From the NCBI GenBank assembly GCA_034008185.1, contig CM067105.1, positions 868,001-932,000 of the forward strand: a stretch of 64,000 nt of DNA, in the 5' to 3' direction. The translations under genes were made by a program, and so were the position numbers. Origin of the DNA: Gorsachius magnificus. Taxonomy: Eukaryota; Chordata; Aves; Pelecaniformes; Ardeidae. This document shows positions 18,781 through 55,479 of this stretch, piece after piece. Position 1 is the stretch's first letter; the number at the start of each line of letters is the position of its first letter. The notes below the pieces were generated by a model, which ran no database searches, was not told the origin of the DNA, and saw only the letters and a program-made list of their open reading frames with translations.

Positions 18781-18781
18781 C

Positions 18782-19640: not shown

Positions 19641-19668
19641 GCCAGACGCCCCATGTTGGGTGCCCAAA

Positions 19669-30814: not shown

Positions 30815-30819
30815 GTGGA

Positions 30820-31700
30820 TCTGGATCTGGCAATACAAGGGTGAATTGTTTCTAGCTCGGTGGGCCCATGACAGCTCAGGCCATCAAGGAAGAGATGCAG
30901 CATATAGATGGGCTCGTGATCGAGGGGTGGACTTGACCATGGACACTATTGCACAGATTATCCATGAATGTGAAACATGTGCTGCGATCAAACAAGCCAA
31001 GCGGTTAAAGCCTCTCTGGTATGGAGGACAAAGGCTGAAATATAAATTTCGGGAGGCCTGTCAGGTTGATTGTATCACACTCCCACAAACCTGCCATGGC
31101 AAGCCCTATGTGCTCACCATGGTGGAAGTGACCACCGGATGGCTGGAAACATATCCCGTGCCCCATGCCACTGCCTGGAACACTATCCTAGGCCTTGAAA
31201 AACAAGTCCTGTGGTGACATGGCACTCCAAAAAGAATTGAGTCAGAGAATGGAACTCATTTCCAAAGCAGCCTCATATACAAATGGGCCAAAGAGCATGG
31301 CATTGAGTGGGTCTGTCACATCCCCTATCATGCACCAGCCTCTGGGAAAATGGAACGATACAATGGACTGTTAAAACTACACTGAAAGCAATGGGTGGTG
31401 GAACATTCAAACATTGGGATACACATTTAGCAAAAGCTACCTGGTTAGTCAACACCAGAGGATCTGCCAACCGAGCAGTCAAACCTCTTACATACAGGAG
31501 AAGAGGATAAAGTCCCTGTAGTGCATGTAAAAAATATGCTGGGGCAGAGAGTCTGGGTTTCTCCTGCCTCAGGTAAAGGGAAACCCATCCGTGGGATTGC
31601 TTTTGCTCAGGGACCTGGCTCTACTTGGTGGGTGATGCGGAAGGACAGGAAATTCCAATGTGTACCTCAAGGGGTTTTGATTTTGGGTGAAAATAGCCAA
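30820..31700 (+). pseudogene. ERV pol: integrase, broken
   Basis: The zinc-binding part shows His residues (WAHDSSGHQG) and CETC about 40 residues later. The first catalytic Asp lies in QVDCITLP. An in-frame TGA follows QVLW near 31215. Beyond it the second catalytic position reads Glu (ESENGTH) where the DDE core has Asp, and further breaks follow near 31380. The C-terminal region is recognisable up to about 31700 by match to 18050-18240 and 20050-20340. Inactive. Confidence 0.87.
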
Positions 31701-32112
31701 TGAACTGAATTGTATAACGTTAATTGCTGTATAATACAGTATGTCATCATTTTTACTATTGCTGTATGTCCTATCAATGGTATAACAGTAAGAATCGCCC
31801 AGATTAAGAAGAATGAATTCTGAAGACACTGAGGAAGTGCAGCGGATGGAACCAGAACTGACTTCAGCAAGCGACAACCCAACACCAGACCCCATCTCTC
31901 CTGCCCTGAAAGACTGTTACAACAGATGGAGCCCAAAACCGTGGACTAAATGAATCCAATGGACATTTTAGAGGGATGGCCCATAGACTAAGGGAATGCT
32001 ATCTGTGTATATATCAAAAAAAAAAATGGGAAGGTGGTGGTGATTAATTGGAATGTATTGTAAGGGCAGGACCTAAGCATGACGTAAATAGTATAGAATA
32101 AGGGGTGGATAA

Positions 32113-32696
32113 TGTCCTGGTTTCGGCTGAGATAGAGTTGATTTTCTTCATAGTAGCTAGCATAGTGCTGTGCTTTGGATTTAGTGCCAGAAGAGTGTTG
32201 ATAACACACTGATGTTTTTAGTTGTTGCCAAGTAGTGCTCAGACTGCTCAAGGACTTTTTGAGCTTCTCCTGCTTGGCCAGGTGCATAACAAGCTGGGAG
32301 TACAGCACAGCTAGGACAGCTAACCCAAACTGTCCAAAGAGCTATTCCATACCATATAACATCATGCTAGGGGTGTGTGTGTTAGTTTGTCAGTTGCTGT
32401 GGGAGTGATTGCTGCTTGGGGAGTGATCGTTGCTCGGGACGGGCTGGGCATCAGTCGGCGGGTGGTGCGCAATTGCATTGTACATCATTCATTTTATATA
32501 TTCTGTATATTCTCTTACCATTATTATTATTACTGTTGTTATTATTTTCTCTTATTAAACTGTCTTATACCTCAGCCCATGGCTCTAACATTTTTTTTTT
32601 TTCCTTCCCGATTCTGTCCCCCACCCCACTGAGCGAGGGGGGAGTGAGCGAGCGGCTGCATGGTACTTTAGTTGCCAGCTGGATTAAACCACGACA
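32113..32696 (+). mobile_element. 3' LTR of the ERV-L remnant
   Basis: Begins TGTCCTGGTTTCGG and ends TTAAACCACGACA, 584 bp with TG...CA termini. An ATTAAA (about 32555) serves as candidate poly(A) signal, followed by a T-run and the gggagtgagcgagcgg block shared with the LTRs at 38726 and 44064. CR1 sequence starts right after it. Confidence 0.93.
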
Positions 32697-33275: not shown

Positions 33276-33930
33276 TGTCACATGAAACTGCTGCTAACAC
33301 AGAAGGGCCTGCCAACATCTGCACTCCCAGCGCTAAGGAACCAGAGCGGCAGTAGGCAGTTTGATATATTTGGGGTTTTTAAAACTTCCCTCCCACTATG
33401 GGGAATGTTCTTGAATGTCAGAATCTCTCAGGTTTCTGCTGAACTCAGGGAGAAAAAAGCGAGTCCTGTGAGGCAAGAGGATTATTCCCTGGCCTTGCAC
33501 CTTTCTGAGATGGAGAGTGATCTCACTTCCATGTTTTCTTGAAAAGCCACCAGACACTGCTGAGAGCAAAGAGATCCACCACAAACCACTAAATGTCTCA
33601 CCCTTTCTCAAGATCTCAGCACCCCTCTTCTAGCCCAGGACACACGTGGCTCATTTCCCCAACCCAAGAGCATGACCTCCATTGTAACACCTTTGTGCTT
33701 CTCCAGTGGGGGTTTAAGAAAAAAAAAAAAAAGGTTGTATGGGACAGGTTTGTATCAGGGAGAGAATCTCAGACCTTGGGAGGATACCTCAGGGAGGTAG
33801 CATATTCTCCTTCTGATGGTATTTCAGGTATGGACAATCAGCTCATAATCCAGCCCCACAGACTGCATTGGCCAGAACTACACATGCACTAGGAAAACTT
33901 GGACACTTGTTCCTGTGGACAGAACTGCAT

Positions 33931-33948
33931 GGGGGGGGGGGGGGGGGG
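33931..33948 (+). repeat. Run of 18 G
   Basis: The right arm has a mixed sequence (gggagacccacaag on the reverse strand, near 54715) at the equivalent place. Either a mutation or a base-calling artefact. Confidence 0.8.
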
Positions 33949-34069
33949 CACAAAATCAGTGTCTGACTGCAGCTGAATCAACACCTCCCCAGAGAACCTG
34001 GCAGCAAAAATGAAGTAACAAAAACAATAACACAGACCAGTGGAGACACAAGCAAATAGCCAGTGAGGG

Positions 34070-36130
34070 TCCAGCTGAAAGAGGCCAGGGCAGAGACAGG
34101 CGGGCCCTCAGGCAGTGTGACCCTGCCCCAGCTCTGCACGTCACCTCCCAGGCACCACCATTGCCGGGCAGCTGCTCTCAGCCCCTGGGCTCTGCAGAGG
34201 GAAATGGCCACGGGTCTGGAGAGCTGCCCCACGGCTCTGCTGGAGCTCTGGCTGCAGAGGAGCTGGTCCCACCTTGGAGCCCAGAGCCCTGAGGGCAGAG
34301 GCTTTGCTGGCTGGGAGAGGAGCCAAGGGGGCTTGCCCAGAGGAAGGGCTCGGCATTGGACAGGATCAAACAGTTCTTTCTGAATTCTCCCTCCCACAAG
34401 ATTTCTGGTTTAGTCTCCTTTAATTCCTGATCATGTCTCTGCGGCCTGGATAATCTGACCCTGGGAGGTGTTTCCCTGTCCCATGTGTTTTCCCGGTCAT
34501 CGTTCACAGACCCCATCCCAAGCTCTGTGAACCCATCTTAGCCCTCCAGAACCCTGCCTGTTTGCAGGGCACTGGCTGGGTGCATGATCCTGTTTGCAGG
34601 TGGAAAATGGCGGCTCAGAACAACCCAGCTGTGTCCAGCTGAAGTGATGATGGCTCTGGCCATAGGCAGAGGGGTGGCTGTAGGCACTTTACCAGGCTCC
34701 TGGAAGTCCTATTGATCACTCTCAGTTGCAGTTCAGGAATCTGAGTGACTTATTAAAACTTGAGAGCTTTTTCTTTCTATTTATAGTTTTCTCTTGCTGC
34801 CTCCCCCACCTTCCCCACCACCCTTCCCCCAGCCCCCAGGAATAAGAAACTGGAAAACATGGACTCAGGAAAGCTCCTTATCTCTATAGTAATACCTGTG
34901 CTGGTCTTCTCCTTCAGAAATCCCCTTGAAAATATTGTGGGACTGATGTGCTGTGAGGTGCCCTGACCCAGGTAGCACTATCTTGACATCAAAAGGACCC
35001 TGCCTCGCTGGGTGTTGCTCATCCCATCCACAGTTTCTCTCCACAGCACCAGGGTCAGCTTCCAGAGAGGCTGAGTGCTGACCCTGGCAGGCAGCAGAGT
35101 CCCTGCCCCAGCACACAATGCTCTGGGAACCAGGGACCCTGCTGGGTAGGACAGCCCTGGGCACCCTCCTGTGCCCATCCAACTTTACACCCCTGCAGCC
35201 ATTAGGAGAAGGCAGCCGTCACTCCCTGTCCCTTTGATGGTACAGTGGAACGTCCTGATCTGCAGCACTCCTCTAGACTAGAAAAAACTATGAGATTTGT
35301 ACACACAGATACCATCAGCTAAGGGATGTGCCACCTTTAGGAGCTCCCTCCAGGAATGGAAGCTTCATTGCCCTGCAGCCAGAGACTTACCCTGCCAAGG
35401 GCTGTAAAGATTTCTCCCACAGTGAACTGTCAGCACGTCCAGACTGTCTGTAACCTCTCTCTGCCTCACTTGTTTACCCTCGGTGCCTGCGGGCAGTGTC
35501 CTCAGCCCTGCTGGTTTGCAGAGGAGCTGTCCTGGGCAGAGCTGTCTCTCTGCAGCGCTGCCCACTTGCCATGAGCTCCCTCCCCCCGGCCGCCCAAGCA
35601 GCACTTGTCTGCCCCCTCGGGCTCCCTCCAGGTGTCCCTGGGCTCCAGGGAACCTGCTGTGACACAGGCTGAAGTCATCCCTGTTTTCTGTCAGCTGGGG
35701 AGAGACACTTCTTAAGAACTCTATAATTTCTCCATGAGAATCGCCATTCCTTGTCCCATCATTAGACAGGACACCCAGAGAGTTACAGGGAGGGATCTCC
35801 TCTACCCCTGCTGAGGGAAGGGATGCAGATGAGTCAACCAAGGCATCTCATTTGTAGGCTTTTAGTCCTAGGGCTAGAATAGGACTCAGCTCCCTCACAT
35901 GCACAACACAAACCCACAGGAGGTGGGATTCCTCTTGCCTCAGTTGTCCAGGTGTGCACAAAATAGGCACCTGCCTGTGAGCTTCTTGTCTCAGCTCTCA
36001 TTCCCATTAATGGGGATCAGGGCAGGACTGGCCTGTTCAGACACAACACCCGGTGACATTTCAGGTGTCAGGGGTGGCTGAAGATATGTGCAGGCAACTG
36101 CAAGCTGTAATGGAGCAGTTCATAGAAGCA
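34070..36130. repeat. OR upstream module, copy 3 (hybrid, no OR)
   Basis: Module in the left arm without a receptor next to it. The donor GTAAGT survives (35395-35400, minus) but the box is TTACAG. The part left of about 35515 matches the right-arm copy at 53.1-54.9 kb; the part right of it matches the copy at 49.7-50.3 kb. Confidence 0.85.
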
Positions 36131-36484
36131 GGCCTACATCGCGGGGAATCCTCTTAGAGGTTGCTGGGAACTTTCTTTGGCCAACTGAAATGGCAGCTGA
36201 TGCCCAAATTAGGGCAAGTGAACCTGTCCCCATTCATGATGTTCAGGGCAGCCTTTAGAGTTGTTCATCTGAACAAATGGAGCCATGTGCCACAGGGAGA
36301 GCTCAGGCTCATTCTTCCTCTTCTCCATCAGCTGTATTTACTGGGTCCCCACTCGCTGTATTGGCAGTTGCCTCATGTTCACCCCCACATTGCCTTCCCG
36401 AATTCAGGGTGTCTACTCCATTTGGTTTTTAAATGCAGGCCCCCAGAGCTGCATGAGATGCCAAGGCTCACAAAGACAGCATAG

Positions 36485-36840
36485 GACCAGTGATGAGTGG
36501 TGTTCCTCAGGGGCTGGTATTAGGACCGGCGCTGTTTACCATCTTTGTCAGCAACATGGAGAATGGGATTGAGTGCAGCCTCAACAAGTGTGCCAGTGAC
36601 ACCAAGTTGTGTGGTGCAGTTGACCCGCTGGAGGGAAGAGATGCCATGCAGAGGGACCTTGATGGGACCTTGACATGAGGTCTGAACCTCATGAAGTTCA
36701 ACAAGTTCAAGTGCAAGGTCCTTCACATGGGTCAGGTCAATCCAAACACAGACAAGGGTTAGGTGTCCATGCTCAAGGCAGGAGGTTGGAACTAAGTGAT
36801 CTATAAGGTCCCTTCCAAGCCAAACCTTCTGTGATTCTAG
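36485..36840 (+). repeat. CR1 fragment in left arm
   Basis: A piece of CR1 reverse transcriptase and 3' end: VLGPALFTIF, then CASDTKLCG where CR1 has FADDTKL, then a jump to the 3' terminus (ccttctgtgattctag). Its inverted partner is at 48935-49290. Confidence 0.85.
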
Positions 36841-37438
36841 GAACAACAGGAAAGCAATGCCCATTCAGGGCGGGGGTGTGACAGACACCCCAGATGGCAT
36901 CGCAGGGCGTGCGATTGGCTGCCTGTGTGCATTTGACTGTTGCCATCAGTCAGAGGCATCAGTCATCAGATGCCATCAGAGTGGCAAAGTCTGTCCCTAC
37001 TCTACCCAACAGCTGCAAGCATTACATGAAGATGAAGCACATCACAGTGGGGTCTGTACTCACACCCTTGATGACACAGGCAAGAAACAGCTGAATCCTT
37101 TTCACAGTGTGCCTGGATACATCTTGTCTTCAAAGAAAATATCCTCCAGGCACAGCAATGCTTCATACGAAAACTCAATTGAAACTCAAAGGGGTGTTCA
37201 ACTTCAAGTGAACTTGACAAACTTTAAGTGAAGAGATTTATGAGTCCTTTTTAGGCACCCATGAGAGGGGGAGAAGAGAGCATGCTTCAGTTTCCAAGAT
37301 CTCATGACAATGCCCAAACCATCCTTCCCTTGGCCTCTGCCATCCCATTTTATAAAATGCAAACCTGGTGGGTCTTGTGTCAATAATGCATCAATAATCC
37401 TTCAGATGTTTCTGTGATTTCCCCAAGAGTGGCAGTGG

Positions 37439-37465
37439 TAACACACACACACACACACACACACA
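37439..37465 (+). repeat. (AC)n microsatellite
   Basis: About 12-13 AC units. The partner at about 48326-48350 has a slightly different length. Confidence 0.95.
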
Positions 37466-38725
37466 AAGTAGCAGTGTGCTTCTGTGGTAGCCCCTCTGGG
37501 CAACGCCAGTTCAATCAATATTTGTCATATAAGGTGTAATATTGAAGTACACACCCAAGTGGTTCAGATGCAAAAGTGAGCCTTTGTGTCCCTGGGTCTC
37601 CTGCTGGTTTCCCTCTCCAGAGAGTGGCAGAGGCTGGATCCCCTTCTCAGGACAGACTCCTTGCCAGGAAGCCACAGCCATGGGAGTAGCTCACCTGGTC
37701 CTTACCAGGACTTCACGCTGCATTTTCTTGATATTTGTGGTGCTTTTCTGTGACTGCTCTGTCTTCACAGATGATCATAAACAGACAACTGTAATCCTAA
37801 GAGATGGTCATAAAAGCCCTGTTATGGTCCAGACAGCTCACCATGAGCTTTGACGCAGTGAGAAAGGCTATTAAAAGCACCAGGAACATCCAACCAGGAA
37901 CATCCAAAACTCTCAAGACCTCTCAGAAGACTGAGTGACCCTGAGAAGCAGCGACTGGGCATGTGTAGGTGTGGCAGAGAGGATTAAGGATGTCAGTAAG
38001 AAACATGTGCACGACCAGCAATGGAAAGCAGGTTATGTCTGTGGCTGGAGGTTGAGGAAAAGGATTGGCATGGGAAGATGGCAGGAAGGCAAGCCCCTCC
38101 TGTTTAAACCAGGGATGATAACAGATGTTTCCATTTTCTGTGCGTGCCTCAGCCTGGCAGATGGGGAATGCCCACTGCTGGGGTGTCTGTGCTCAGTCAT
38201 GCCCCAGGAGATGACCTGGCTCTCCTCCCCTCCTTCCCTCCCCACACCTGGAAAGACATCAGGAAACATCCATGAGCCTGGAGGATACACAGACCTCCCG
38301 GGATGAGATCCCATCACTGCAGGGGAAGAGGAAGGGCTTGTGAGACACAGGGGCATGCAGAAGGAGGACACTGTGGGTGCAGCTGTGAGTGTGTTAAAGG
38401 CAGCAAGAAGGCTTGGCACATCGGGGGCTGTCATGCTGAAGAGAGTTAGTTCGAGGTTTGATTTTGAGACTGCAGAAGAAGGAGGATGTGCAATCCAGTG
38501 CTGGGATTTGGAGCTAAATTCTCTCATCCCTGGGGCTTGGAAATCTTGGGTGATAAAGGAGCATGAACAAGGCTTTGGAAGGAAGGGGATGTGTTGTGGG
38601 GAACCCACAGGCATTGACAAATCCTCAGAAAAACCACAGCTTGGTGCTGGAAGCAAGGAAGCAGGAACAGCCACAGGCCCAGGACGGTGTAGCTGTGGTG
38701 GGGATGGCCAAGGGCCTTAGTGGGG

Positions 38726-39272
38726 TGTCCTGGTTTCGGCTGGGATAGAGTTAATTTTCTTCACAGAAGCTAGCATAGTGCTGTGCTTTGATTTAGAGTC
38801 ATGAGAATGTGATAACCTACTGATAGTTTTGTTGTTGCCAACAGTGCTCACTGCTCAAGGACTTTTGAGCTTCTCCATTTCAGCAGGTGCAAACAAGCTG
38901 GAGTACAGCACGCTAGGACCAAACTGTCCAAGAGCATTCCATACATAAAAGCAATGCTGGGGGGGGGTTGGGGTGTCCGGTCGCTGCAGCTGGGGTACAT
39001 ACGCTGCTCGGGAAGGCTGGGCATCGGTCTCAGTGACGGAGGACACAAATTGCAATTGTAGCATCTATTCAGTTTGGTTTTCTGTATATTTTGTTATCAT
39101 TCGTCAATTAATACATTTATTTTAGTTCTGCCTATTAAACTGGTCTTTATCTCAGCCCTCGGCTCTACCCTTTTTCCCCTTCCCGATTCTCTCCCCCATC
39201 CCACTGAGGGAGGGGGGGGAGTGAGCGAGCGGCTGCATGGTGCTGAGTTGCCAGCCGGGTTAAACCACGACA
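38726..39272 (+). mobile_element. Solo ERV-L LTR with 5-bp target duplication
   Basis: Starts TGTCCTGGTTTCGGC and ends TTAAACCACGACA. The flanks are TGGGG at 38721-38725 and TGGGG at 39273-39277. The inverted arm has the uninterrupted site (ccttagtggggatttgg on the matching strand, near 47080-47095), which confirms both the limits and the 5-bp duplication. A 5-bp duplication fits ERV-L integrases. The provirus has been reduced to one LTR. Confidence 0.95.
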
Positions 39273-41882
39273 TGGGGATTTGGCACCCAACAGAACTGAG
39301 ACCCTTGTCCTCTTGGCTATGGCTTCTTCCTCTTCCACTGAGACTCACTGAGGACATGAGGTCCTTACAGCTCCAGCAACTTGTTGTGTCCTCACCCACC
39401 CTCAAAGGAGCCTGGGAGGTGTCCTACCACTGACTTGCACCTTGCATCACCGAGTCCTACATCACGTTTATGCCAAGAATATCCCAGAACATCCCATAAA
39501 GGAAAGGAGCCCCCTCCCCAGGGGATGTTCCCTCCCTCAGCTGGGGAGATACATTTACTTTTACTATCAGGAAAAGAATTTGGCATGAGATTATTTTTTT
39601 TTTTTTTGGTGTCCCATCAGTGTACAGGAGACCCACAAATGTGACAATGAAAGATCTAATCCAAGGTTGGGGGATATCATCAGTTGAATGAAATAGGCAT
39701 TTCATCCTGGTTTAGTAGTCCTAGCCCTAGAAAGACATGCAGCTCTCTTTTTCCATGCCACATCTCTGCTCTGAACCAAAGCCTTTGCACACACGGGGTC
39801 ATGGATGCTTCGTACCAGGTTCCTTATGGGAGGTCAGAGCTGGCCTGGTTCCACAGCTGCAGGGCTTCAGCCCAAAGTGCAGCAATGCCCTCAGCCAGGG
39901 GCACAGGCGGGAAGAGCTGGAGCCCTTCCTGAGGAGACAGAGCTGTGACATGCTTGCAGAGCTCAGTCCAGCTGCTCTTCAAGGACAGCAGCCTCCAAGC
40001 TCAGCGAGGTCCAGATCGAAACTCAGTCTGACTTTGAAAGGCAACTGAAGGGCACCACAACGAGTGTGTGCTACTGCAGGAGCAGGTAAAGGAGAAACGC
40101 AGATCCTGTGTGGCACTGCTGAATTTAGTAAGAGCTGGTGTAGATAGACCTGAGCTCCTCTGTGTCCTCTTTGCCTCAGTGTCTCCCAGTAATGTCTCCC
40201 AGGCCTCTGTGAGTCAGGGCAGGACTCTGGAAGAGATCAACCAGCAGTGGGTGGGGATCAAGTCAGGGATGACTTGAGCAAACACAATCCTTACCAGTCT
40301 CTGGGAGAGGAGGGACAGCACCCCAGGGGGCTGAGTGAGCAGGCCAATGTCACAGCGAGGCCACTCTCCATCGCCTTTGCAAGGTCATCGAGACTGTGGG
40401 GACTCCCAGGTAATGGGGGAAATGCACCAATGGGTTGCATGCACCTTTCCAAAATGCCCAAAGGCTGTGCAGAGGAGCGAAAGGCTGTGCCCCAGAGCGT
40501 GTTCCCTCGGATCCCATTTCTGGGTGTCTGAAAGAGAAGGGGACTGGATTTACCCAGGGTCACTTGCCTCTTGCCATCCTCTGATCTTTCTGAGATGAAA
40601 GGACAGGATTGCTGGACACAGGCAAACCAGCAGTTTTCTTTTAACCTGGAAGTCAGTGAAGTTTTATACATTACCGCCCTGCAATATTCCTGTGCCCATG
40701 TGAGGACATTATGGTCTGTCAGGGTGGATAAGTAGATGGGTAAATAACCAGGTGAATAGTGGGCCTTGTAGAGACGTGGGCGGTATCTGCCTGGAAGCCT
40801 GTAGCTGGTGGGGTTGCCATACCCTGCAATGCACTCCATAGCCTGCAACCTGCACCCTATAATGTGTTTTTATGTCTCAGAGGAGATAAGAGAGGGCTTT
40901 ATCAGAGCATTTGTAGATGACAGGATGTTGAGGAGAGCAGACACTATGCTGCAGGGCAGGGTGGCCATCCCAAAGGACAAAGGCAAGCTGGAGTAATGGG
41001 CCAATACATACATCAGGATAGCCAATAAGTTGTGCCCTTGAGGTGCACAAAGCCCATGCAACTGCATAGGCCAGGGACTGCCTAGGTGGGCGTCAGCTCT
41101 GCAAGGAAGCAGGAACAGGCACAGGCACAGCACAGTGTAGGTGTGGTGGGACTGGCCAAGGGCGTTGGTGGGAATTTGGCACCCAACAGTACTGAGACCC
41201 TTGTCCTCTTGGCTATGGCTTCTGTCTCTTCCACTGAGACCCACTAGGGACATGAGGTCCTTACGGCTCCAGCGCCTCATTGCCTCCTCACCCACCCTCC
41301 ACAGAGCCTGGGAGGTGTCCTACCACTAACAACCTGGCATCACTCACTGCCACATCACATTGCTCCCAAGAAGAGCTCAGAGCATCCTATAAGGGAAGAG
41401 AGCTCCCTCCCCAGGGTATGGGAATCCAGGCTTGGTCATCCTGCTTGGTGAAGAACATCAAGGGCTTTCACACTGATCTCCACATTGAAATTTCCTCCTG
41501 TATCAAGTCTCTCTGACTTCCTGCTTCACCAGCCCCCACGGACAGGAACCTTGTCCATTCCTGGTCTCCTCAGTGATGGACTTCAGCAGGGCCTGCTAAC
41601 ACCCTCAGAAACTTGGAGGTTTGCTGCTTTTACTTCTCTGCAGGCTTGTTCAGTCTTTCAGGCTCTGCAGTTCAGGAGCTGGGCGCCAGAGGGCTCATTC
41701 CCATGCAAAACACCCCAGGGAGCCCAGGCTGGGCATAGTTCTCCTTTAGTCTTCAATTCTTACAAGGCTCATTAGAGAGATCTCAGGAGTCAAAGTGAAA
41801 AGATGTCAGAGCGAAGAGGCAAAGTGAATAAAATGCTTGATTTTGAATAGCCAATTCTGCGTTGATCCCAACATATTTGGGA

Positions 41883-41944
41883 GTTGTGGTTTAACTTGGC
41901 AGGCAGCTGAACACCACCCAACCTCTTGCTCACTCCCCCTCTCC
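41883..41944 (-). mobile_element. LTR 3'-end remnant at palindrome inner edge
   Basis: On the minus strand this is an LTR end: gagagggggagtgagc followed by a ggttgggtggtgttcagctgcc-like part and taaaccacaac. It mirrors 44410-44474 and is cut off by the CR1 that begins at 41945. Confidence 0.8.
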
Positions 41945-43296
41945 ATAGAATCATAGAATCACCTCGGTTGGAAAAGACCTTTAAGATCATCGAGTCCAAC
42001 CGTTAACCTAGCACTGCCATCCCACCACTAAACCATGGCCCTAAGCACCTCATCTATCCTTCTTTTAAATACCTCCAGGGATGAGGACTCCACCACCTCC
42101 CTGGGAAGCCCATTCCAGAGCCTGACAACCCTCTCGGTGAAGAAGTTTTTCCTAATGTCTAGCCTAAACCTGCCCTGGCCAGCTTCAAGCCATTTCCCCT
42201 CGTCCTATCTCTGTTACCAGGGAGAAGAGGCCGACCCCCACCTCACTAAGCCTCCTTTCAGGCAGTTGTAGAGGGGATCAGGTCTCCCCTCAGCCTCCTC
42301 TTCTCCAGACTAAACAATCCCAGTTCCCTCAGCCGCTCCTCGTATGACTTGTGTTCCAGACCCCTCACCAGCTTGGTTGCTCTCCTCTGGACCTGTTCCA
42401 GCAAGGCAACATCTTTCTTGTAGTGAGGGGCCCAAAAATGAACACAGTATTCAAGGTGTGGCCTCACCAGCACCGAGTACAGGGGCACGATCACTTCCCT
42501 ACTCCTGCTGGTCACACTATTCCTGATACAGGCCAGGATGCCATTGGCCTTCTTGGCCACCTGGGCACACTGCTGGCTCATATTCAGGTGGCTGTCAATC
42601 AGTACCCCCAGGTCTTTTCCCACCAGGCAGCTTTCCCGCCACTCTTCGCCAAGCCTGTAGCGCTGCATGGGGTTGTTGTGACAAAAGTGCAGGACCCGGC
42701 ACTTGGCCTTGTTGAACCTCATACAACTGGCCTCGGCCCATCGATCCAGCCCATCCAGGTCTCTCTGCAGAGCCCTCTTCTCCTCGAGCAGATCAACACT
42801 ACCACTCAGTTTGGTGTCATCTGCAAATTTACTGAGGGCACACTCAATCCCCTCATCCAGGTCATTGATAAAGATATTAAACAAGACTGGCCCTAGAACT
42901 GAGCCCTGGGGGACACCGCTTGTGACCGGCCACCAACTGGATTTAGCTCCATTCACCACGACTCTCTGGGCTTGGCCAGCCAGCCAGTTTTTAACCCAGC
43001 AAAGAGTACATCCATCTAGGCCATGAACTGCCAGCTTCTCCAGGAGAATGCTATGGGAGACTGTGTCAAAGGCTTTGCTGAAGTCCAGGTAGACAACATC
43101 CACAGCCTTTCCCTCATCTACCAGGTGGGTCACCTGGTCATAGAAGGAAATCAGGTTGGTTAGGCAAGACCTGCCTTTTGTGAACCCATGCTGACTGGGC
43201 CTGATCCCCTGATTGTCCTCCATGTGCCTGGTGAGCACACTCAAGATGAACCTCTCCATAATCTTCCCCGGTACCGAGGTCAGGCTGACTAACATT
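41945..43296 (-). mobile_element. CR1 LINE, 5'-truncated, 1.35 kb
   Basis: The 3' end at 41945 shows the ATAGAATCATAGAATC repeats. It extends to about 43296, where CR1 similarity stops at aggctgacta. It lies in the palindrome spacer beside the LTR remnant. Confidence 0.94.
42258..43296 (-). pseudogene. CR1 reverse transcriptase, partial but open
   Basis: About 345 residues of the reverse transcriptase stay open: [58 protein letters not shown], catalytic FADDTKLSG, and the conserved C-terminal region to LRGDLI. The frame continues upstream into unrelated sequence (to 43376) and lacks the endonuclease and the first part of the polymerase, so it is not autonomous. The undamaged frame suggests a young copy. 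Confidence 0.92.
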
Positions 43297-43483
43297 GGGA
43301 TACGGGAGAGTATCAGGAAAAAAAAGTAAAATGTCCACCTCTTGTGTGCTTTCTTTTTTCTTTGGAGATTCCCCATGAGTTTCCTGATTCCCCAACCTTC
43401 TCTCCCTATAGCTCTGCTTCTTTTCCTGACTATTGCTATGCACAGTCTTGTACTTGAAAGACACTGTCCTCAACGACCAACTG

Positions 43484-43983
43484 NNNNNNNNNNNNNNNNN
43501 NNNNNNNNNNNNNNNNNNNNNNNNNNNNNNNNNNNNNNNNNNNNNNNNNNNNNNNNNNNNNNNNNNNNNNNNNNNNNNNNNNNNNNNNNNNNNNNNNNNN
43601 NNNNNNNNNNNNNNNNNNNNNNNNNNNNNNNNNNNNNNNNNNNNNNNNNNNNNNNNNNNNNNNNNNNNNNNNNNNNNNNNNNNNNNNNNNNNNNNNNNNN
43701 NNNNNNNNNNNNNNNNNNNNNNNNNNNNNNNNNNNNNNNNNNNNNNNNNNNNNNNNNNNNNNNNNNNNNNNNNNNNNNNNNNNNNNNNNNNNNNNNNNNN
43801 NNNNNNNNNNNNNNNNNNNNNNNNNNNNNNNNNNNNNNNNNNNNNNNNNNNNNNNNNNNNNNNNNNNNNNNNNNNNNNNNNNNNNNNNNNNNNNNNNNNN
43901 NNNNNNNNNNNNNNNNNNNNNNNNNNNNNNNNNNNNNNNNNNNNNNNNNNNNNNNNNNNNNNNNNNNNNNNNNNNNNNNNNNN
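43484..43983. other. Assembly gap (500 N) in palindrome spacer
   Basis: A nominal-size gap that separates the CR1 side from the ERV side of the spacer. The arms are therefore not joined by continuous sequence. Confidence 0.99.
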
Positions 43984-44474
43984 ATATCAAAAGGCAGGGA
44001 CAGTGCTGGTGATTAATTGGAAAGGGTAGGATCTGGGCATGGTGCAGATGGTATGGGATAAGGGGTCCTGGTTTCAGCTGGGATAGAGTTAATTATCTTC
44101 CTAGTAGCTGGCACAGCGGTACTTACACCAGTCAAGGAATTTTCAGCTTCCCCTGCTCTGTAAGTGCACAAGAAGCTGCTCAGTATGTAAAGTGGGGCGT
44201 GTTTGCCAGGAGGAAGCTATTGCTCTTTGGGGACAGGCTGGGCATTGGTCTGTGGAAGGGGAGCAATTGCACCCTACATTCCTTTGTTTGTGCATTGTCT
44301 TATTCTTATTCATATTCTTTATTCTTATTCTGTTCTTTCTTGTATTCCAGAGTCATTATTTCAACCCATGGGTTTTACCTTTTTTTCTGATTCTCTCCCC
44401 TGTCCCACTGTGGAGAGGGGGAGTGAGCGAGCATCTGGGTGCTCTTCAGCTGCCTGCTGGGTTGAATCACAACA
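43984..44474 (+). mobile_element. ERV-L 3' end and shortened LTR
   Basis: 43984-44063 matches the last internal bases of the ERV (atatcaaaag, ggtgattaattgg, gggataagggg), as at 32010-32112. The LTR follows from about 44064 (tcctggtttcagctggg) to about 44474 (ttgaatcacaaca), with an internal deletion that leaves about 410 bp. Its last part mirrors 41883-41944. Confidence 0.88.
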
Positions 44475-47400
44475 CCCAAATATGTTGGCATCAATGCAGA
44501 CTTGGCTATTCAAAATCAAGAACTTTACTCCCTTTGGCTCTTAGCTCTGACACCTTTTCACTTTGACTGCACTCCTGAAATCTCTCTAATGAGCCTCCTA
44601 AGAATTGAGGACTAAGGAGAACTGTGCCCAGACTTGGCTCCTTAGGGTGTTTTGTGTGGTAATGAGCCCTCTGGTGCCCAGCTCCTGAACTGCAGAGCCT
44701 GAAAGACTTAACAAGCCTCCAGAGAAGTAAAAGCAGCAAACCTCCAGGTTTCTGAGGGTGTCAGCAGGCCCTGCTGAAGTCCATCACTGAGGAGACCAGG
44801 AGCTGACAAGGTTCCTGTCCCTGGGGGCTGGTGAAGCAGGAAGTCAGAGACACTTGATACAGGAGGACATTTCAATGTGAAGATCACTGTGAAAGCCCTT
44901 GATGTGCTTCACCAAGCAGGATGGCCAAGCCCAGATTCCCATACCCTAGGGAGGGGGCTCCTTTCCGTTATGGATGCTCTGGGGTCTTCCTGGGGGAAAT
45001 GTGATGTGGGAGTGTGTGATGTTAGGCTCTGTCAGTGGTAGGACACCTCCCAGGCTCTGTGGAGGATGGGTGAGGAGGCAAAGAGGCACTGGAGCTATAA
45101 GGACCTCATATCCTCTACTGGGTCTCAGTGGAAGAGACGGAAGCCATAGCCAAGAGGACAAGGGTCTCATTTCTGTTGGGGTGTGAAAGCCCCACCAAGG
45201 CCCTTGGCCATCCCCACCACAACTACGCTGTCCTGTCCCTGTGCCTGTTCCTGCTTAGTTGCAAGAGCATAAGCCCACCTAGGCAGTCCCTGGCCTATGC
45301 AGTTGCATGGGCTTAGTCCACCTTGAGGGCTATCCTGATGTATGTATTGGCCCATTACTCCAGCTTGCCTTTGTCCTTTGGGATGGCCACCCTGCCCTGC
45401 AGCATAGTGTCTGCTCTCCTCAACATCCTGTCATCTACAAATGCTCTGATAAAGCCCTCTCTTATCTCCTCTGAGACATAAAAACACATTATAGGGTGCA
45501 GGTTGCAGGCTATGGAGTGCATTGCAGGGTATGGCAACCCCACCAGCTACAGGCTTCCAGGCAGATACCGCCCACGTCTCTACAAGGCCCACTATTCACC
45601 TGGTTATTTACCCATCTACTTATCCACCCTGACAGACCATAATGTCCTCACATGGGCACAGGAATATTGCAGGGCGGTAATGTATAAAACTTCACTGACT
45701 TCCAGGTTAAAAGAAAACTGCTGGTTTGCCTGTGTCCAGCAATCCTGTCCTTTCATCTCAGAAAGATCAGAGGATGGCAAGAGGCAAGTGACCCTGGGTA
45801 AATCCAGTCCCCTTCTCTTTCAGACACCCAGAAATGGGATCCGAGGGAACACGCTCTGGGGCACAGCCTTTCGCTCCTCTGCACAGCCTTTGGGCATTTT
45901 GGAAAGGTGCATGCAACCCATTGGTGCATTTCCCCCATTACCTGGGAGTCCCCACAGTCTCGATGACCTTGCAAAGGCGATGGAGAGTGGCCTCGCTGTG
46001 ACATTGGCCTGCTCACTCAGCCCCCTGGGGTGCTGTCCCTCCTCTCCCAGAGACTGGTAAGGATTGTGTTTGCTCAAGTCATCCCTGACTTGATCCCCAC
46101 CCACTGCTGGTTGATCTCTTCCAGAGTCCTGCCCTGACTCACAGAGGCCTGGGAGACATTACTGGGAGACACTGAGGCAAAGAGGACACAGAGGAGCTCA
46201 GGTCTATCTACACCAGCTCTTACTAAATTCAGCAGTGCCACACAGGATCTGCGTTTCTCCTTTACCTGCTCCTGCAGTAGCACACACTCGTTGTGGTGCC
46301 CTTCAGTTGCCTTTCAAAGTCAGACTGACTTTCGATCTGGACCTCGCTGAGCTTGGAGGCTGCTGTCCTTGAAGAGCAGCTGGACTGAGCTCTGCAAGCA
46401 TGTCACAGCTCTGTCTCCTCAGGAAGGGCTCCAGCTCTTCCCGCCTGTGCCCCTGGCTGAGGGCATTGCTGCACATTTGGGCTGAAGCCCTGCAGCTGTG
46501 GAACCAGGCCAGCTCTGACCTCCCATAAGGAACCTGGTACCAAGCATCCATGACCCCGTGTGTGCAAAGGCTTTGGTTCAGAGCAGAGACGTGGCATGGA
46601 AAAAGAGAGCTGCATGTCTTTCTAGGGCTAGGACTACTAAACCAGGATGAAATGCCTATTTCATTCAACTGATGATATCCCCCAACCTTGGATTAGATCT
46701 TTCATTGTCACATTTGTGGGTCTCCTGTACACTGATGGGACACCAAAAAAAAAAAAATAATCTCATGCCAAATTCTTTTCCTGATAGTAAAAGTAAATGT
46801 ATCTCCCCAGCTGAGGGAGGGAACATCCCCTGGGGAGGGGGCTCCTTTCCTTTATGGGATGTTCTGGGATATTCTTGGCATAAACGTGATGTAGGACTCG
46901 GTGATGCAAGGTGCAAGTCAGTGGTAGGACACCTCCCAGGCTCCTTTGAGGGTGGGTGAGGACACAACAAGTTGCTGGAGCTGTAAGGACCTCATGTCCT
47001 CAGTGAGTCTCAGTGGAAGAGGAAGAAGCCATAGCCAAGAGGACAAGGGTCTCAGTTCTGTTGGGTGCCAAATCCCCACTAAGGCCCTTGGCCATCCCCA
47101 CCACAGCTACACCGTCCTGGGCCTGTGGCTGTTCCTGCTTCCTTGCTTCCAGCACCAAGCTGTGGTTTTTCTGAGGATTCGTCAATGCCTGTGGGTTCCC
47201 CACAACACATCCCCTTCCTTCCAAAGCCTTGTTCATGCTCCTTTATCACCCAAGATTTCCAAGCCCCAGGGATGAGAGAATTTAGCTCCAAATCCCAGCA
47301 CTGGATTGCACATCCTCCTTCTTCTGCGGTCTCAAAATCAAACCTCGAACTAACTCTCTTCAGCATGACAGCCCCCGATGTGCCAAGCCTTCTTGCTGCC

Positions 47401-48934
47401 TTTAACACACTCACAGCTGCACCCACAGTGTCCTCCTTCTGCATGCCCCTGTGTCTCACAAGCCCTTCCTCTTCCCCTGCAGTGATGGGATCTCATCCCG
47501 GGAGGTCTGTGTATCCTCCAGGCTCATGGATGTTTCCTGATGTCTTTCCAGGTGTGGGGAGGGAAGGAGGGGAGGAGAGCCAGGTCATCTCCTGGGGCAT
47601 GACTGAGCACAGACACCCCAGCAGTGGGCATTCCCCATCTGCCAGGCTGAGGCACGCACATAAAATGGAAACATCTGTTATCATCCCTGGTTTAAACAGG
47701 AGGGGCTTGCCTTCCTGCCATCTTCCCATGCCAATCCTTTTCCTCAACCTCCAGCCACAGACATAACCTGCTTTCCATTGCTGGTCGTGCACATGTTTCT
47801 TACTGACATCCTTAATCCTCTCTGCCACACCTACACATGCCCAGTCGCTGCTTCTCAGGGTCACTCAGTCTTCTGAGAGGTCTTGAGAGTTTTGGATGTT
47901 CCTGGTTGGATGTTCCTGGTGCTTTTAATAGCCTTTCTCACTGCGTCAAAGCTCATGGTGAGCTGTCTGGACCATAACAGGGCTTTTATGACCATCTCTT
48001 AGGATTACAGTTGTCTGTTTATGATCATCTGTGAAGACAGAGCAGTCACAGAAAAGCACCACAAATATCAAGAAAATGCAGCGTGAAGTCCTGGTAAGGA
48101 CCAGGTGAGCTACTCCCATGGCTGTGGCTTCCTGGCAAGGAGTCTGTCCTGAGAAGGGGATCCAGCCTCTGCCACTCTCTGGAGAGGGAAACCAGCAGGA
48201 GACCCAGGGACACAAAGGCTCACTTTTGCATCTGAACCACTTGGGTGTGTACTTCAATATTACACCTTATATGACAAATATTGATTGAACCCCAGAGGGG
48301 CTACCACAGAAGCACACTGCTACTTTGTGTGTGTGTGTGTGTGTGTGTTACCACTGCCACTCTTAGGGAAATCACAGAAACATCTGAAGGATTATTGATG
48401 CATTTTTGACACAAGACCCACCAGGTTTGCATTTTATAAAATGGGATGGCAGAGGCCAAGGGAAGGATGGTTTGGGCATTGTCATGAGATCTTGGAAACT
48501 GAAGCATGCTCTCTTCTCCCCCTCTCATGGGTGCCTAAAAAGGACTCATAAATCTCTTCACTTAAAGTTCACTTAAAGTTGAACACCCCTTTGAGTTTCA
48601 ATTGAGTTTTCGTATGAAGCATTGCTGTGCCTGGAGGATATTTTCTTTGAAGACAAGATGTATCCAGGCACACTGTGAGAAGGATTCAGCTGTTTCTTGC
48701 CTGTGTCATCAAGGGTGTGAGTACAGACCCCACTGTGATGTGCTTCATCTTCGTGTAATGCTTGCAGCTGTTGGGTAGAGTAGGGACAGACTTTGCCACT
48801 CTGATGGCATCTGATGACTGATGCCTCTGACTGATGGCAACAGTCAATTGCACACAGGCAGCCAATCGCACGCCCTGCGATGCCATCTGGGGTGTCTGTC
48901 ACACCCCCGCCCTGAATGGGCATTGCTTTCCTGT

Positions 48935-49290
48935 TCCTAGAATCACAGAAGGTTTGGCTTGGAAGGGACCTTATAGATCATTTAGTTCCAACCTCCTGCC
49001 TTGAGCATGGACACCTAACCCGTGTCTGTGTTTGGATTGACCTGACCCATGTGAAGGACCTTGCACTTGAACTTGTTGAACTTCATGAGGTTCAGACCTC
49101 ATGTCAAGGTCCCATCAAGGTCCCTCTGGATGGCATCTCTTCCCTCCAGCGGGTCAACTGCACCACACAACTTGGTGTCACTGGCACACTTGTTGAGGCT
49201 GCACTCAATCCCATTCTCCATGTTGCTGACAAAGATGGTAAACAGCGCAGGTCCTAATACCAACCCCTGAGGAACACCACTCATCACTGG
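48935..49290 (-). repeat. CR1 fragment in right arm
   Basis: Inverted partner of 36485-36840, with only a few substitutions. Confidence 0.85.
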
Positions 49291-49699
49291 TCCTATGCTG
49301 TCTTTGTGAGCCTTGGCATCTCATGCAGCTCTGGGGGCCTGCATTTAAAAACCAAATGGAGTAGACACCCTGAATTCGGGAAGGCAATGTGGGGGTGAAC
49401 ATGAGGCAACTGCCAATACAGCGAGTGGGGACCCAGTAAATACAGCTGATGGAGAAGAGGAAGAATGAGCCTGAGCTCTCCCTGTGGCACATGGCTCCAT
49501 TTGTTCAGATGAACAACTCTAAAGGCTGCCCTGAACATCATGACTGGGGACAGGTTCACTTGCCCTAATTTGGGCATCAGCTGCCATTTCAGTTGGCCAA
49601 AGAAAGTTCCCAGCAACCTCTAAGAGGATTCCCCCCGATGTAGGCCTGCTTCTATGAACTGCTCCATTACAGCCTGCAGTTGCCTGCGCATATCTTCAG

Positions 49700-51930
49700 C
49701 CACCCCTGACACCTGAAATGTCACCGGGTGTTGTGTCTGAACAGACCAGTGCTGCCCTGATCCCCATTAATGGGAATGAGAGCTGAGACAAGAAGCTCAC
49801 AGGCAGGTGCCTATTTTGTGCACACCTGGACAACTGAGGCAAGAGGAATCCCACCTCCTGTGGGTTTGTGTTGTGCATGTGAGGGAGCTGAGTCCTATTC
49901 TAGCCCTAGGACTAAAAGCCTACAAATGAGATGCCTTGGTTGACTCATCTGCATCCCTTCCCTCAGCAGGGGTAGAGGAGATCCCTCCCTGTAAGTCTCT
50001 GGGTGTCCTGTCTAATGATGGGACAAGGAATGGCGATTCTCATGGAGAAATTATAGAGTTCTTAAGAAGTGTCTCTCCCCAGCTGACAGAGAAAACATCA
50101 GGGATGACTTCAGCCTGTGTCACAGCAGGTTCCTCTGGAGCCCCAGGGACACCTGGAGGGAGCCCCGAGGGGGCAGAGCAAGTGCTGCCTTGGGCTGGTC
50201 CTCTGCCGCTGAGCTGGGCTGGGCTCCTGGGATGGAGGGAGCTCATGGCAAGTGGGCAGCGCTGCCGAGAGACAGCTCTGCCCAGGAGCAGCTCCTCTGC
50301 AAAGCGCCTGCAGGCACCGAGGGTAAACAAGTGAGGCAGAGAGTGGTTAAAGGCAGTCTGGGGCGGGGGGATGCTGAGAGCTCATGGAGAGAAATTTTTA
50401 CAGAGAGTAAGTCTGTGGCTTCAGGGCATTCCATCTGTAGATCCTGCTTGGGTCTCCTACAGCTGGGATATTGCCCAGCCTATGTGATAGGTAAGTAGAA
50501 CCCTCAGACTTTCTCTGGTGCAGAGGAGGAAGACGTGCTGCAGAGAGATGCAGAGATGGCTGCCTTCTCCCAGGGAGGGCTGCAGGGTGGGAAGGTGGGT
50601 GTGCAGGCAGGGGTGCCCAGGGCTGTCCTTCCCAGCAGGGTCCCTGCACCCCAGGGGGCTGTGTGCTGGAGCAGGGACTCTGCTGCCAGCCAGGGTCAGC
50701 ACTCAGCCTGCCCGGGGAGCTCCCCAGCGTTCTGCGGGGAGAAGATCTTGGTGGAAGGAGCAGTCTCTGGCAGGGCAGGACAGGGTCCTTCTGCTGTTCA
50801 GAGGGTGTGGTGTGGATCAGAGCTTCTCACAGCTCTAGATCACATTAGAAATCTTCTCAGGAGATGTTTCAAGAGGCAGGGTTTACTATAAAGATAAGGA
50901 GATTTCCTGGGTCTGGGTTTTCTGTTTCCTACGCTGAGAGTAGGGGACAGGACAGGGAGCAGGGGGCAGTAGGGAGGGAAAGAGAAATAGAAAAGGCCTT
51001 CAGCCACTCCTCTGCCTACCGACAGCACCAGCATCACCTTTGCTGGACCCATCAGGTTATTCTGGCCTTCTGAAGCTCGCAACAGGAACATGCGCCCTCT
51101 AAACAGGCAGGTTTCTGGAGGGCCAAGGTGAATGCACAGAGGTTGGGATGGGGTCTGTGAGCAGGGAAAAAACCTGAGACAGGGAAACACCTCCCAGGGT
51201 GAGAATCTCCAGACAGCAGGGAATGAGAGGAAATGAAAATCTGAAATATTTTGGGAGGGAGAATTCAGAAAACTCCATATGATTCCCTCCAATGCAACCC
51301 CCTTCCTCTGAGCAAGCCCCCTTGGCTCCTCTCCCAGCCAGCAAAGCCTCTGCCCTCAGGGCTGGGGGCTCCAAGGTGGGAACCAGCTCCTCTGCAGCCA
51401 GAGCTCCAGCAGAGCCGTGGGGCAGCTCTCCAGCCCCGTGGCCATTTCCCTCTGCAGAGCCCAGGGGCTGAGAGCAGCTGCCCGGCAATGGTGGTGCCTG
51501 GGAGGTGGCGTGCAGAGCTGGGGCAGGGTAACGCTGCCTGAGGGCCCGCCTGCCTCTGCCCTGGCCTCTCTGAGCCAAACCCTCGCTGGATATTTGCTTG
51601 TTCCTCCCGTTGCCTGTGTTAGTGGTATTGTTATCTTGATGTTGTTGTCAGGCTCTGTTAGGAGGTAGAGTTTGAGCTGTAGAGTCACACACTGATCTTG
51701 TGGGTCCCCCCATGCAGGTGTGCCCATGAGAGCAATTGTCCCAGCTTTCCTCTCGCCTGCGGGGCTGTGGGCAATGCAGTCTGTGGGGCTGGGGAATGAG
51801 CTGAATCTCCCTTAATCAAATGCCATCATTAGGACACCTGGCTATCTCCTTGAGGTTTCCTTCCAAGCTGTGAGCTTTTCTCCAGGAATCAAACCTGTCC
51901 TAGAGCACCTTTGTGTTATCTGAAAGCCCC
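49700..51930. repeat. OR upstream module, copy 4 (inverted)
   Basis: All module blocks occur in reverse order relative to copies 1-3, on the strand of the truncated OR at 52667. It extends at its far end (51690-51930) into sequence also found at 54710-54930. Confidence 0.83.
50347..50412 (+). promoter_or_regulatory. Candidate OR promoter and 5' noncoding exon, inverted unit
   Basis: TTAAAG box (50347-50352) and donor GTAAGT (50407-50412), 60 bp apart. A strong acceptor (TTTTCATTTTGAACAG, ending about 52642) lies 25 bp before the ATG of the truncated OR at 52667, so the predicted intron is about 2.2 kb. Confidence 0.38.
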
Positions 51931-52666
51931 ACGTAGAAGAACAGAAATGCTACGATGGAGAAACTGCTGTTGAGTTGGCAAAATGAGCCATGAGTGTCCT
52001 GGTCTAAAAGTTTGGAGCTGAGATCTCAGAAAAGGGTGGAGCATTCAGTGGTCTGAGGTGGATCCCTCTGCTCTCAGCATTGCCTGGTTGCTTCTGAGGT
52101 TAATATGGGAGTGTGATCACCCTCCAGCTCCGAAAGCTGAAAGCCCAGGGCAGCTGGGAACTAGGCAGAGAGACAGACAAGCTCCCGTCACTCTTCTCAG
52201 CCACAGGCAATCCTCCTGCCTCTCAGGACTCTCTTCTCCCTGAGTGCAGCAGAAATGCTGAGCATTTCTGACATCCAAGATCACTCCCTGGGGTGGGAGG
52301 GGGAGCTGGCTTTAGCACGGGGAGTACAGATGCTGACAAGTCCTTCTACATCATGAGCAGCTCCATCTGACAAAGTCGAACACCAGGACTGGCTCCTGCC
52401 CAAACTGTTCCCATGGACCTACTGCTGCAGAGCAGGGCTGACTCATTGGCAGTCGGTGGGCAGAGGCCCTGCTCCTCCGAACGCACACACCCAGCACCAG
52501 AGCTGCAGCCACGGAGATGAAGAAAGGTCTCCTAGAAAAGGCAAAGTGGGTGTATGTAGCAGCAGGGTCTCTGGGACAAATGGCTTTGATTTCGCTCAAA
52601 GAAGAATCCCCAAACTTGGCATTTTCTTTTTCATTTTGAACAGTGCTGCATTCTCAGAGGAAGCAA

Positions 52667-53158
52667 ATGTCCAACAGCAGCTCCATCACCCAGTTCCTCC
52701 TCCTGGCATTCGCAGACACGCGGGAGCTGCAGCTCTTGCACTTCTGGCTCTTCCTGGGCATCTACTTGGCTGCCCTCCTGGGCAATGGCCTCATCATCAC
52801 TGCCATAGCCTGCGACCACCGCCTCCACACCCCCATGTACTTCTTCCTCCTCAACCTCTCCCTCCTTGACCTGGGATCCATCTCCACCACTGTCCCCAAA
52901 TCCATGGCCAACTCCCTAGGGGACACCAGAGCAATTTCCTCTGCAGGATGTGCTGCACAGGTCTTTCTTGTTTCCTTTTTGCTTGGAACAGAGTATTTTC
53001 TTCTTACCATCATGGCCTATGATCGCTACATTGCCATCTGCCAACCCCTACACCATGGGTCTCTCCTGAGCAGCACAGCTTGTGTCCACATGGCAGCTCC
53101 TCTGCAAAGGAGCAGCCATGTCCAGGAGCAGCTCCTCTGCAAAACGCAGCAGGGCTGA
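52667..53158 (+). pseudogene. Olfactory receptor, family 14-like, truncated at TM4
   Basis: The N-terminal 143 or so residues match the intact receptors: MSNSSSITQFLLL, LLGNGLIIT, HTPMYFFLLN, MAYDRYIAICQPL. Just after CVHMAA (about 53096) the sequence changes to part of the upstream module (gcagctcctctgcaaa), and the frame stops at 53158 in unrelated codons. TM4 to TM7 are absent. The join sits on gcagctcctctgcaaa, which occurs twice within 40 bp there. The open frame starts eight codons earlier, but MSNSSS is the conserved start. No receptor can be made; it might still be transcribed from its own candidate promoter. Confidence 0.92.
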
Positions 53159-54964
53159 GGGCACTGCCTGCAGGCACCGAGGGTAAACACGTGAGGCAGA
53201 GAGAGGTTACAGACAGTCTGGACGTGCTGACAGTTCACTGTGGGAGAAATCTTTACAGCCCAGTAATTCTCTGGCTGCAGGGCAATGAAGCTTCCATTCC
53301 TGGAGGGAGCTCCTTAAGGTGGCACATCCCTTAGCTGATGGTATCTGTGAGTACAAATCTCATAGTTTTTTCTAGTCTAGAGGAGGAGAACGTGCTGCAG
53401 ATCAGGACGTTCCACTGTACCATCAAAGGGAGAGGGAGTGACGGCTGCCTTCTCCTAATGGCTGCAGGGGTGTAAAGTTGGATGGGCACAGGAGGGTGCC
53501 CAGGGCTGTCCTACCCAGCAGGGTCCCTGGTTCCCAGAGCATTGTGTGCTGGGGCAGGGACTCTGCTGCCTGCCAGGGTCAGCACTCAGCCTCTCTGGAA
53601 GCTGAGCCTGGTGCTGTGGAGAGAAACTGTGGATGGGATGAGCAACACCCAGCGAGGCAGGGTCCTTTTGATGTCAAGATAGTGCTACCTGGGTCAGGGC
53701 ACCTCACAGCACCACATCAGTCCCACAATATTTTCAAGGGGATGTCTGAAGGAGAAGACCAGCACAGGTATTGCTATAGAGATAAGGAGCTTTCCTGAGT
53801 CCATGTTTTCCAGTTTCTTATTCCTGGGGGCTGGGGGAAGGGTGGTGGGGAAGGTGGGGGAGGCAGCGAGAGAAAACTATAAATAGAAAAAAAAAGCTCT
53901 CAAGTTTTAATAAGTCACTCAGATTCCTGAACTGCAACTGAGAGTGATCAATAGGACTTCCAGGAGCCTGGTAAAGTGCCTACGGCCACCCCTCTGCCTA
54001 TGGCCAGAGCCATCATCACTTCAGCTGGACACAGCTGGGTTGTTCTGAGCCGCCATTTTCCACCTGCAAACAGGATCATGCACCCAGCCAGTGCCCTGCA
54101 AACAGGCAGGGTTCTGGAGGGCTAAGATGGGTTCACAGAGCTTGGGATGGGGTCTGTGAACGATGACTGGGAAAAGACATGGGACAGGGAAACACCTCCC
54201 AGGGTCAGATTATCCAGGCTGCAGAGACATGATCAGGAATTAAAGGAGACTAAACCAGAAACCTTGTGGGAGGGAGAATTCAGAAAGAACTGTTTGATCC
54301 TGTCCAATGCTGAGCCCTTCCTCTGGGCAAGCCCCCTTGGCTCCTCTCCCAGCCAGAAAAGCCTCTGCCCTCAGGGCTCTGGGCTCCAAGGTGGGAACCA
54401 GCTCCTCTGCAGCCAGAGCTCCAGCAGAGCCGTGGGGCAGCTCTCCAGCCCCGTGGCCATTTCCCTCTGCAGAGCCCAGGGCTGAGAGCAGCTGCCCGGC
54501 AATGGTGGTGCCTGGGCAGTGGCGTGCAGAGCTGGGGCAGGGTAACGCTGCCTGAGGGCCCGCCTGCCTCTGCCCTGGCCTCTTTCAGCTGGACCCTCAC
54601 TGGCTATTTACTTGTGTCTCCACTGCTCTGTGTTATTGTTTTTGTTATTTCATTTTTGCTGCCAGGTTCTCTGGGGAGGTGGTGTTTCAGCTGCAGTTCA
54701 GACACTGATCTTGTGGGTCTCCCATGCAGTTCTGTCCACAGGAACAAGTGTCCAAGTTTTCCTAGTGCATGTGTAGTTCTGGCCAATGCAGTCTGTGAGG
54801 CTGGATTATGAGCTGATTGTCCATACCTGAAATACCATCAGAAGGAGAATATGCTACCTCCCTGAGGTATCCTCCCAAGGTCTGAGATTCTCTCCCTGAT
54901 ACAAACCTGTCCCATACAACCTTTTTTTTTTTTTTTCTTAAACCCCCACTGGAGAAGCACAAAG
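53100..54964. repeat. OR upstream module, copy 5 (inverted)
   Basis: Matches the left part of copy 3 in the left arm. The donor position reads GTAATT (53263-53268) and the box TTACAG, so the candidate exon signals have decayed. No receptor follows within the expected 2 kb. Confidence 0.83.
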
Positions 54965-55479
54965 GAAGCGCGAGGTAGCATTTGCGATGAACCTGTCCAA
55001 AGTGGGTGAGAGAAATCTCTCTGGGATGTTGGGGGCTGTTCCTGGTGTAACACACAGAAATGCCAGGGCTCTGCGAGGTGTCCACACCTGAGCTGGCCTC
55101 GTGCACTTGTCACCCACACAGGGGTGTTCAGAGGCAGGATTCCTTCCCTTGCACATGCAGAAGCAGTGCATTAGCAGAAAACACAGTGTGTCTTCATCCC
55201 TGCGGTGTATTGCTCTGCTCTGCACTCATCTGAGATGCTCCAAGAATGAACGCAGGGACCTTTGCTCAAGGAAGCACATCCCAGTGCTGCATTCAGGTGT
55301 TTTCCCAGGGAACATTGCTCTCAATGTGAAGAAACCTCAAGACACTGTTCCACAGGCCTTCATGGAATCCTGTGTTTGGTTTGGGCAGAGAGGTTTAGGC
55401 AGCAGGGGGGCACCAGGGGTGGCTTCTGTGAGAAAATGCCAGAGGCTTCCCCTGTGCATGATAGAGCCAATGCCAGCTG

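Follow-up and report, generated by a model that had tools for sequence, protein, structure and literature searches.

Inverted Arms in an Olfactory Receptor Cluster of Gorsachius magnificus: A Probable Recent Segmental Duplication Across an Assembly Gap

Do two near-identical inverted stretches that face each other across an assembly gap constitute a palindrome, a recent duplication, or a single locus held twice? We addressed this question for a window, the whole stretch of DNA analyzed, of 64,000 nucleotides (C25:868001-932000) on a chromosome of 2.59 Mb (C25) in the 1.176-Gb genome of Gorsachius magnificus, which is assembled in 36 contigs. The pair most likely represents an ordinary recent segmental duplication, and the assembly question stays beside it.

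A 500-N gap (43484-43983) separates the left-arm contig from the right-arm contig. With a second 500-N gap at 16266-16765, the left-arm contig spans 26.7 kb (16766-43483), and the right-arm contig spans 21.1 kb (43984-65118); within the window and its flanks, the four contigs with a gap at either end measure 18.5-26.7 kb. We treat the 500-N gaps as nominal scaffold gaps because runs of exactly this length recur five times in the 124 kb of window and fetched flanks from the same chromosome. On C22, an N run of 984 bases or more, cut by the end of a fetched locus (L017), indicates that not all gaps in the assembly are 500 N. Our guess from the 500-N gaps is that Hi-C was used in scaffolding. The symmetry of the arms rests on a contig join over a gap of nominal size. 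Their head-to-head placement, approximately 4 kb apart, is the scaffold's statement only, as is the orientation across the gap.

Extent and Divergence of the Arms

Comparing the window with itself recovered the inverted arms where the original prediction had placed them, at 33,690-41,948 and 54,965-44,408. Three inverted matches, all far above chance level, compose the pair: 33690-35555 with 54965-53102 (95.7%, 3020 bits), 34843-38725 with 50931-47074 (92.0%, 5662 bits), and 39273-41948 with 47078-44408 (95.2%, 4244 bits). The arms do not form one uniform palindrome of simple copies: divergence forms a mosaic, a solo LTR occurs only in the left arm, and an extra 2.9 kb occurs only in the right. 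The recent shared block covers 33690-41038 on the forward strand in the left arm and, inverted relative to it, 45326-54965 on the reverse strand in the right arm, including the extra 50.2-53.1 kb. Within this block, left 33690-35480 corresponds to right 54965-53180, and left 35600-41038 corresponds to right 50190-45326 (the former endpoint approximate). The shared sequence amounts to about 6.8 kb; counting the 0.55-kb LTR, the left arm's block measures 7.35 kb. Ten of the longer open frames of the arms were compared with Pfam and none matched, and the block carries no recognized intact gene. Rfam, searched at gathering thresholds, returned no match.

From the outside inward, the arms differ at 36/1773, 18/1717, 3/1285, 3/1741, and then 83/835 positions, or 2.03% in the outer segment, 1.05%, 0.2%, and finally 9.9% in the innermost, with segments picked after seeing the data. 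The second and third levels differ with p = 0.00014 (18/1717 versus 6/3026) for these post hoc segments. A change-point search located a step at left position 41039, equivalent to right position 45325, with 30/4851 differences before it and 99/908 after; the 2dlnL was 244, and shuffling the differences 200 times never gave a value above 17.7. The inner 5 kb had been described as nearly identical, which is accurate for left 35600-41038 and fails for the innermost 0.9 kb. The value of 0.2% in the inner 3 kb also fits an allelic level of difference.

Just outward of the step, the two arms group together. In a tree of the 39.6-41.04 kb segment, they are sisters separated by 0.8% (a figure for which the right piece overran the step by 12 bases, the segment count being 3/1741), versus 10.7-14.3% to the other loci. 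This tree included only loci having the segment, namely seven others of the 11 paralogue loci fetched. When left 40000-41500 was used as a genome query, the right arm matched at 95% and all other listed matches at 89% or less; there were at least 46 matches including self, all on C25 and C22, with 40 candidates scored.

Inward of the step, this relationship is lost. The innermost left stretch (41039-41948, forward strand) is a dispersed repeat that ends in an LTR end, and sequence comparison identifies the matching repeat in the right arm at 44408-45325 (reverse strand). The two are about 10-11% apart, no closer than other copies: left and right differ by 10.2%, right differs from loci L017 and L018 by 9.7%, and left differs from L012 by 9.8%. 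The corresponding tree, which drew on eight other loci of the 11, did not group left and right together, with low support. In a genome search with the left segment, the best match after self was C25:1286103 (89%, 1179 bits); the right arm followed at 88% and 1147 bits, a small margin between the two best of 48 listed matches on C25 and C22. Since the innermost stretches are no closer to each other than to other copies, this 0.9 kb is a dispersed repeat present on both contigs, and the recent block is shorter than had been described. At the step, the recent duplication ends and recent identity yields to ordinary paralogue-level divergence. Gene conversion was considered as the required cause of the step and dropped, because the inner stretches are not sisters.

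The spacer had been said to hold a CR1 element, 500 N, and an ERV end; all three are present, but the ERV end is not restricted to the spacer. Both arms carry the final bases of that LTR together with the same flanking sequence, and a CR1 fragment (41944-43289, reverse strand), recognized by its reverse-transcriptase match, is inserted in the left LTR copy and splits it; the right arm is uninterrupted there. At the edge of the right contig, a short ERV interior end followed by an LTR (43984-44474, forward strand) resembles sequence within the left contig, 43997-44116 matching 32028-32165 and 44230-44474 matching 32436-32696. The left contig edge (43332-43483) was tried as further ERV and rejected, as its local alignment scores did not exceed those of 100 shuffles for each of five targets.

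Insertions, Junctions, and Patches That Distinguish the Arms

The left arm contains a 547-bp solo LTR (38726-39272, forward strand) with TG...CA termini and a 5-bp target duplication, TGGGG, at 38721-38725 and 39273-39277. The right arm retains the empty site at 47074-47078, with a single, uninterrupted TGGGG. The 2.9 kb found only in the right arm (50220-53101, forward strand) comprises a receptor-upstream sequence (copy 1) and an olfactory receptor exon fragment of about 143 codons (52667-53097, forward strand), whose cut end at 53097 is joined at 53102 to a second upstream copy (copy 2). None of the other 39 genome matches listed spans this junction. By eye, the junction sits in a short imperfect palindrome of about 34 bases (53060-53140).

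Querying the genome with left 35000-36200 retrieved right-arm copy 2 at 94% over 556 bases and right-arm copy 1 at 83% over the full length; no other listed match exceeded 89%, and the next full-length one stood at 79%. The left arm switches from copy-2-like to copy-1-like sequence at 35480-35690 (forward strand), a patch of about 200 bases with seven private deletions where 10 other copies have 0-4; six of the seven remove 1-5 bases, and the other about 31. Decay could explain these deletions; the small ones look like noise in the consensus and could point to a misjoin. Their position at the switch point warns of local misassembly. A receptor-upstream copy on C22 (L012, about 3590-3868) has four private small deletions, like the left-arm patch, and the assembly may contain low-quality consensus stretches.

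All three upstream copies are 96-98% alike over about 200 bp (left 34086-34285, right 51365-51565, and right 54376-54575), while around this stretch right-arm copy 1 differs from the other two by roughly 14-31%. The stretch is a possible short conversion tract.

The Receptor Cluster Around the Arms

The original prediction missed that the arms lie among olfactory receptors. Eight frames were submitted to Pfam, and all four receptor frames matched PF13853 (olfactory 7tm_4). The 120 relatives of one receptor frame listed with an organism, out of 7994, are all from birds, and most are OR14A16-, OR14C36-, or OR14J1-like. Judged by these sequence matches, the locus reads as a bird cluster of OR14-type (gamma-c-like) olfactory receptors, where we assume that gamma-c and the OR14 names denote the same group.

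One open receptor frame of 319 codons (24385-25344, reverse strand) is oriented as the unit of the left arm. Another of 307 codons, OR14A16/14C36-like (57820-58743, reverse strand), shares a contig with the right-arm receptor fragment and has the opposite orientation. Beside the open receptors at 24.4 and 57.8 kb, a further olfactory receptor at 5899-6825 has a broken frame. Two ERV pol fragments (18559-19660 and 29932-31044), 90% alike, form an inverted pair that flanks a receptor unit.

When the genome was searched with the receptor fragment and 40 of 446 candidates were scored, at least 38 receptor-type sequences other than the query matched at 87-90%, and every one of them lay on C25 or C22. 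Across 124 kb, receptor units occur in both orientations; by hand count, orientation changes four times inside contigs and across three of five gaps. Where dozens of related units lie clustered in either orientation, an inverted pair is unsurprising.

Clusters of this kind have been described. The parts of the gamma-c report consulted (PMC2758906) portray avian clusters rich in highly similar copies, with numerous pseudogenes and gene fragments, sequence that is difficult to place, and a proposal of concerted evolution and of a location on microchromosomes, features that recall the present locus. In those parts, neither an inverted pair of this sort nor this locus is described. Both OR14-like 7tm_4 receptors and many clustered copies occur here. 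According to PMC4988538, chicken chromosome 16 carries OR14J1-type genes.

Origin of the Inverted Pair

The arms are probably an inverted segmental duplication of recent origin, set among older units of the OR14-type cluster that have diverged by 10-15%. In support, the inverted copies are 0.2-2% apart, the solo LTR is in one only, and the exon fragment is in one only. With many units in both orientations, non-allelic recombination or template switching has ample opportunity, and either process acting between homologous units could have generated the inverted copy. Each copy would afterwards have been altered, by LTR insertion, by deletion between repeats, and perhaps by a short conversion tract. 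The relevant excerpt of a bovine study defines segmental duplications by a length of at least 1 kb and an identity of at least 90%. The arms exceed both values and appear similar to such duplications in their mosaic divergence and in the repeats at their edges, with copy number taken from the assembled sequence. Beyond raw material for receptor-cluster turnover, we see no function. The arms are most likely an ordinary duplication in a receptor cluster.

The assembly could instead hold one locus twice, as two haplotypes or through a misjoin within receptor repeats, with the scaffolder placing the contigs face to face. We regard this as unlikely, although several features invite it. The original prediction had raised head-to-head haplotypes, and the gap is a real warning sign: a gap between copies, here of 500 N, is among the marks of false duplication listed in the portion of PMC9516828 consulted, where false duplication is also reported for about 45% of a zebra finch microchromosome of 4.2 Mb. 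The contigs are short, divergence across the inner 3 kb is just 0.2%, and the deletion-rich patch lies exactly at the copy 2/copy 1 switch, where left departs from right. The haplotype version fits badly, because allelic contigs should remain collinear up to the contig end. Instead, in each of the two contigs both ends of the shared block are internal, and the same-contig sequence outside it (16.9 kb on the left, 10.2 kb on the right) is not mutually collinear. Inward of the block, both contigs continue at paralogue-level divergence. The 1-2% divergence further out, the 2.9-kb structural difference, and the LTR insertion with its target duplication also count against a single locus, as do the receptors outside the arms, which point opposite ways when each is taken relative to its own arm. 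Heterotype duplications as characterized in that portion of PMC9516828 resemble the present case in the gap between copies on one scaffold; they differ in that here the block is internal to both contigs, the flanks are non-collinear, and the copies are structurally different. Allelic collinearity to the contig end, our own criterion for false heterotype duplication, is absent here.

The duplication could also be real with the right contig misoriented, in which case the copies would be direct; we regard this variant of the preferred explanation, which is not an addition to it, as unlikely. Orientation is set by the gap join alone, orientation changes across three of the five gaps, and Hi-C scaffolding is known to be prone to misorienting short contigs, as noted in PMC7672694. 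However, as placed, the right contig has its complete receptor at 57.8 kb oriented like the receptors of the two contigs leftward, which flipping would reverse, and with four orientation changes inside contigs, a change at a gap is not odd.

An old palindrome like those of ampliconic regions, in which gene conversion maintains the likeness of the arms and the inner 0.9 kb escaped, is quite unlikely. The fall in divergence toward the center, the sharp step at 41039, and the 200-bp stretch that is unlike its surroundings would suit such a history; the LTR, uncopied to the other arm, and the step, which needs no conversion, do not. Conversion between the arms, as originally suggested, may apply to the inner 3 kb (0.2% versus 1-2% outward), while the step inward of it marks the duplication end. 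An autosomal palindrome in the receptor cluster, with arms exchanging by gene conversion and the inner 3 kb homogenized, seems to us very improbable; if true, microchromosomal receptor arrays would be shuffled yet kept alike via head-to-head pairs. A sex-linked amplicon, also proposed at the outset, gained no support from a search for a CHD1-like marker: CHD1-like_C had three matches in the genome (C29, C8, and C16) and none on C25, which does not by itself prove an autosome; 10 of the longer arm frames had no Pfam match. Ampliconic arms are expected to be more than 99% alike throughout, and the divergence of these arms surpasses 1% in both outer segments and the innermost. The human Y palindrome P6, with arms more than 99.9% similar (PMC3723533), is alike in its inverted arms and in possible conversion. 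In contrast to sex-chromosome palindromes, the present arms are 98-99.8% alike with a 10% inner stretch, have no recognized intact gene, and show no sign of sex linkage.

If the favored duplication is real, the locus adds one more case of turnover in a bird smell-receptor cluster; if it is false, gap-joined contigs in small repeat-rich chromosomes can mimic palindromes. Either way, a 20-kb palindrome should not be claimed from the present assembly alone.

Where a chromosome is poorly assembled, a recent pair may be a false one, and the arms are not the only near-identical pair at hand. C25:2233.0-2241.2 kb matches about C22:1777.1-1785.4 kb over 8.2 kb at 98.5%, and the loci containing them, L013 (C25:2233000-2242999) and L015 (C22:1777000-1786999), share a further 1.4 kb at 96.9%; the shared sequence ends at a gap in L013. 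This was the sole such pair among the 55 formed by 11 loci, at a cut-off of at least 93% over at least 300 bases. It represents either recent duplication between the two chromosomes or a false one; in either case, the locus of the arms is not the sole place where such pairs, or assembly errors of this kind, occur.
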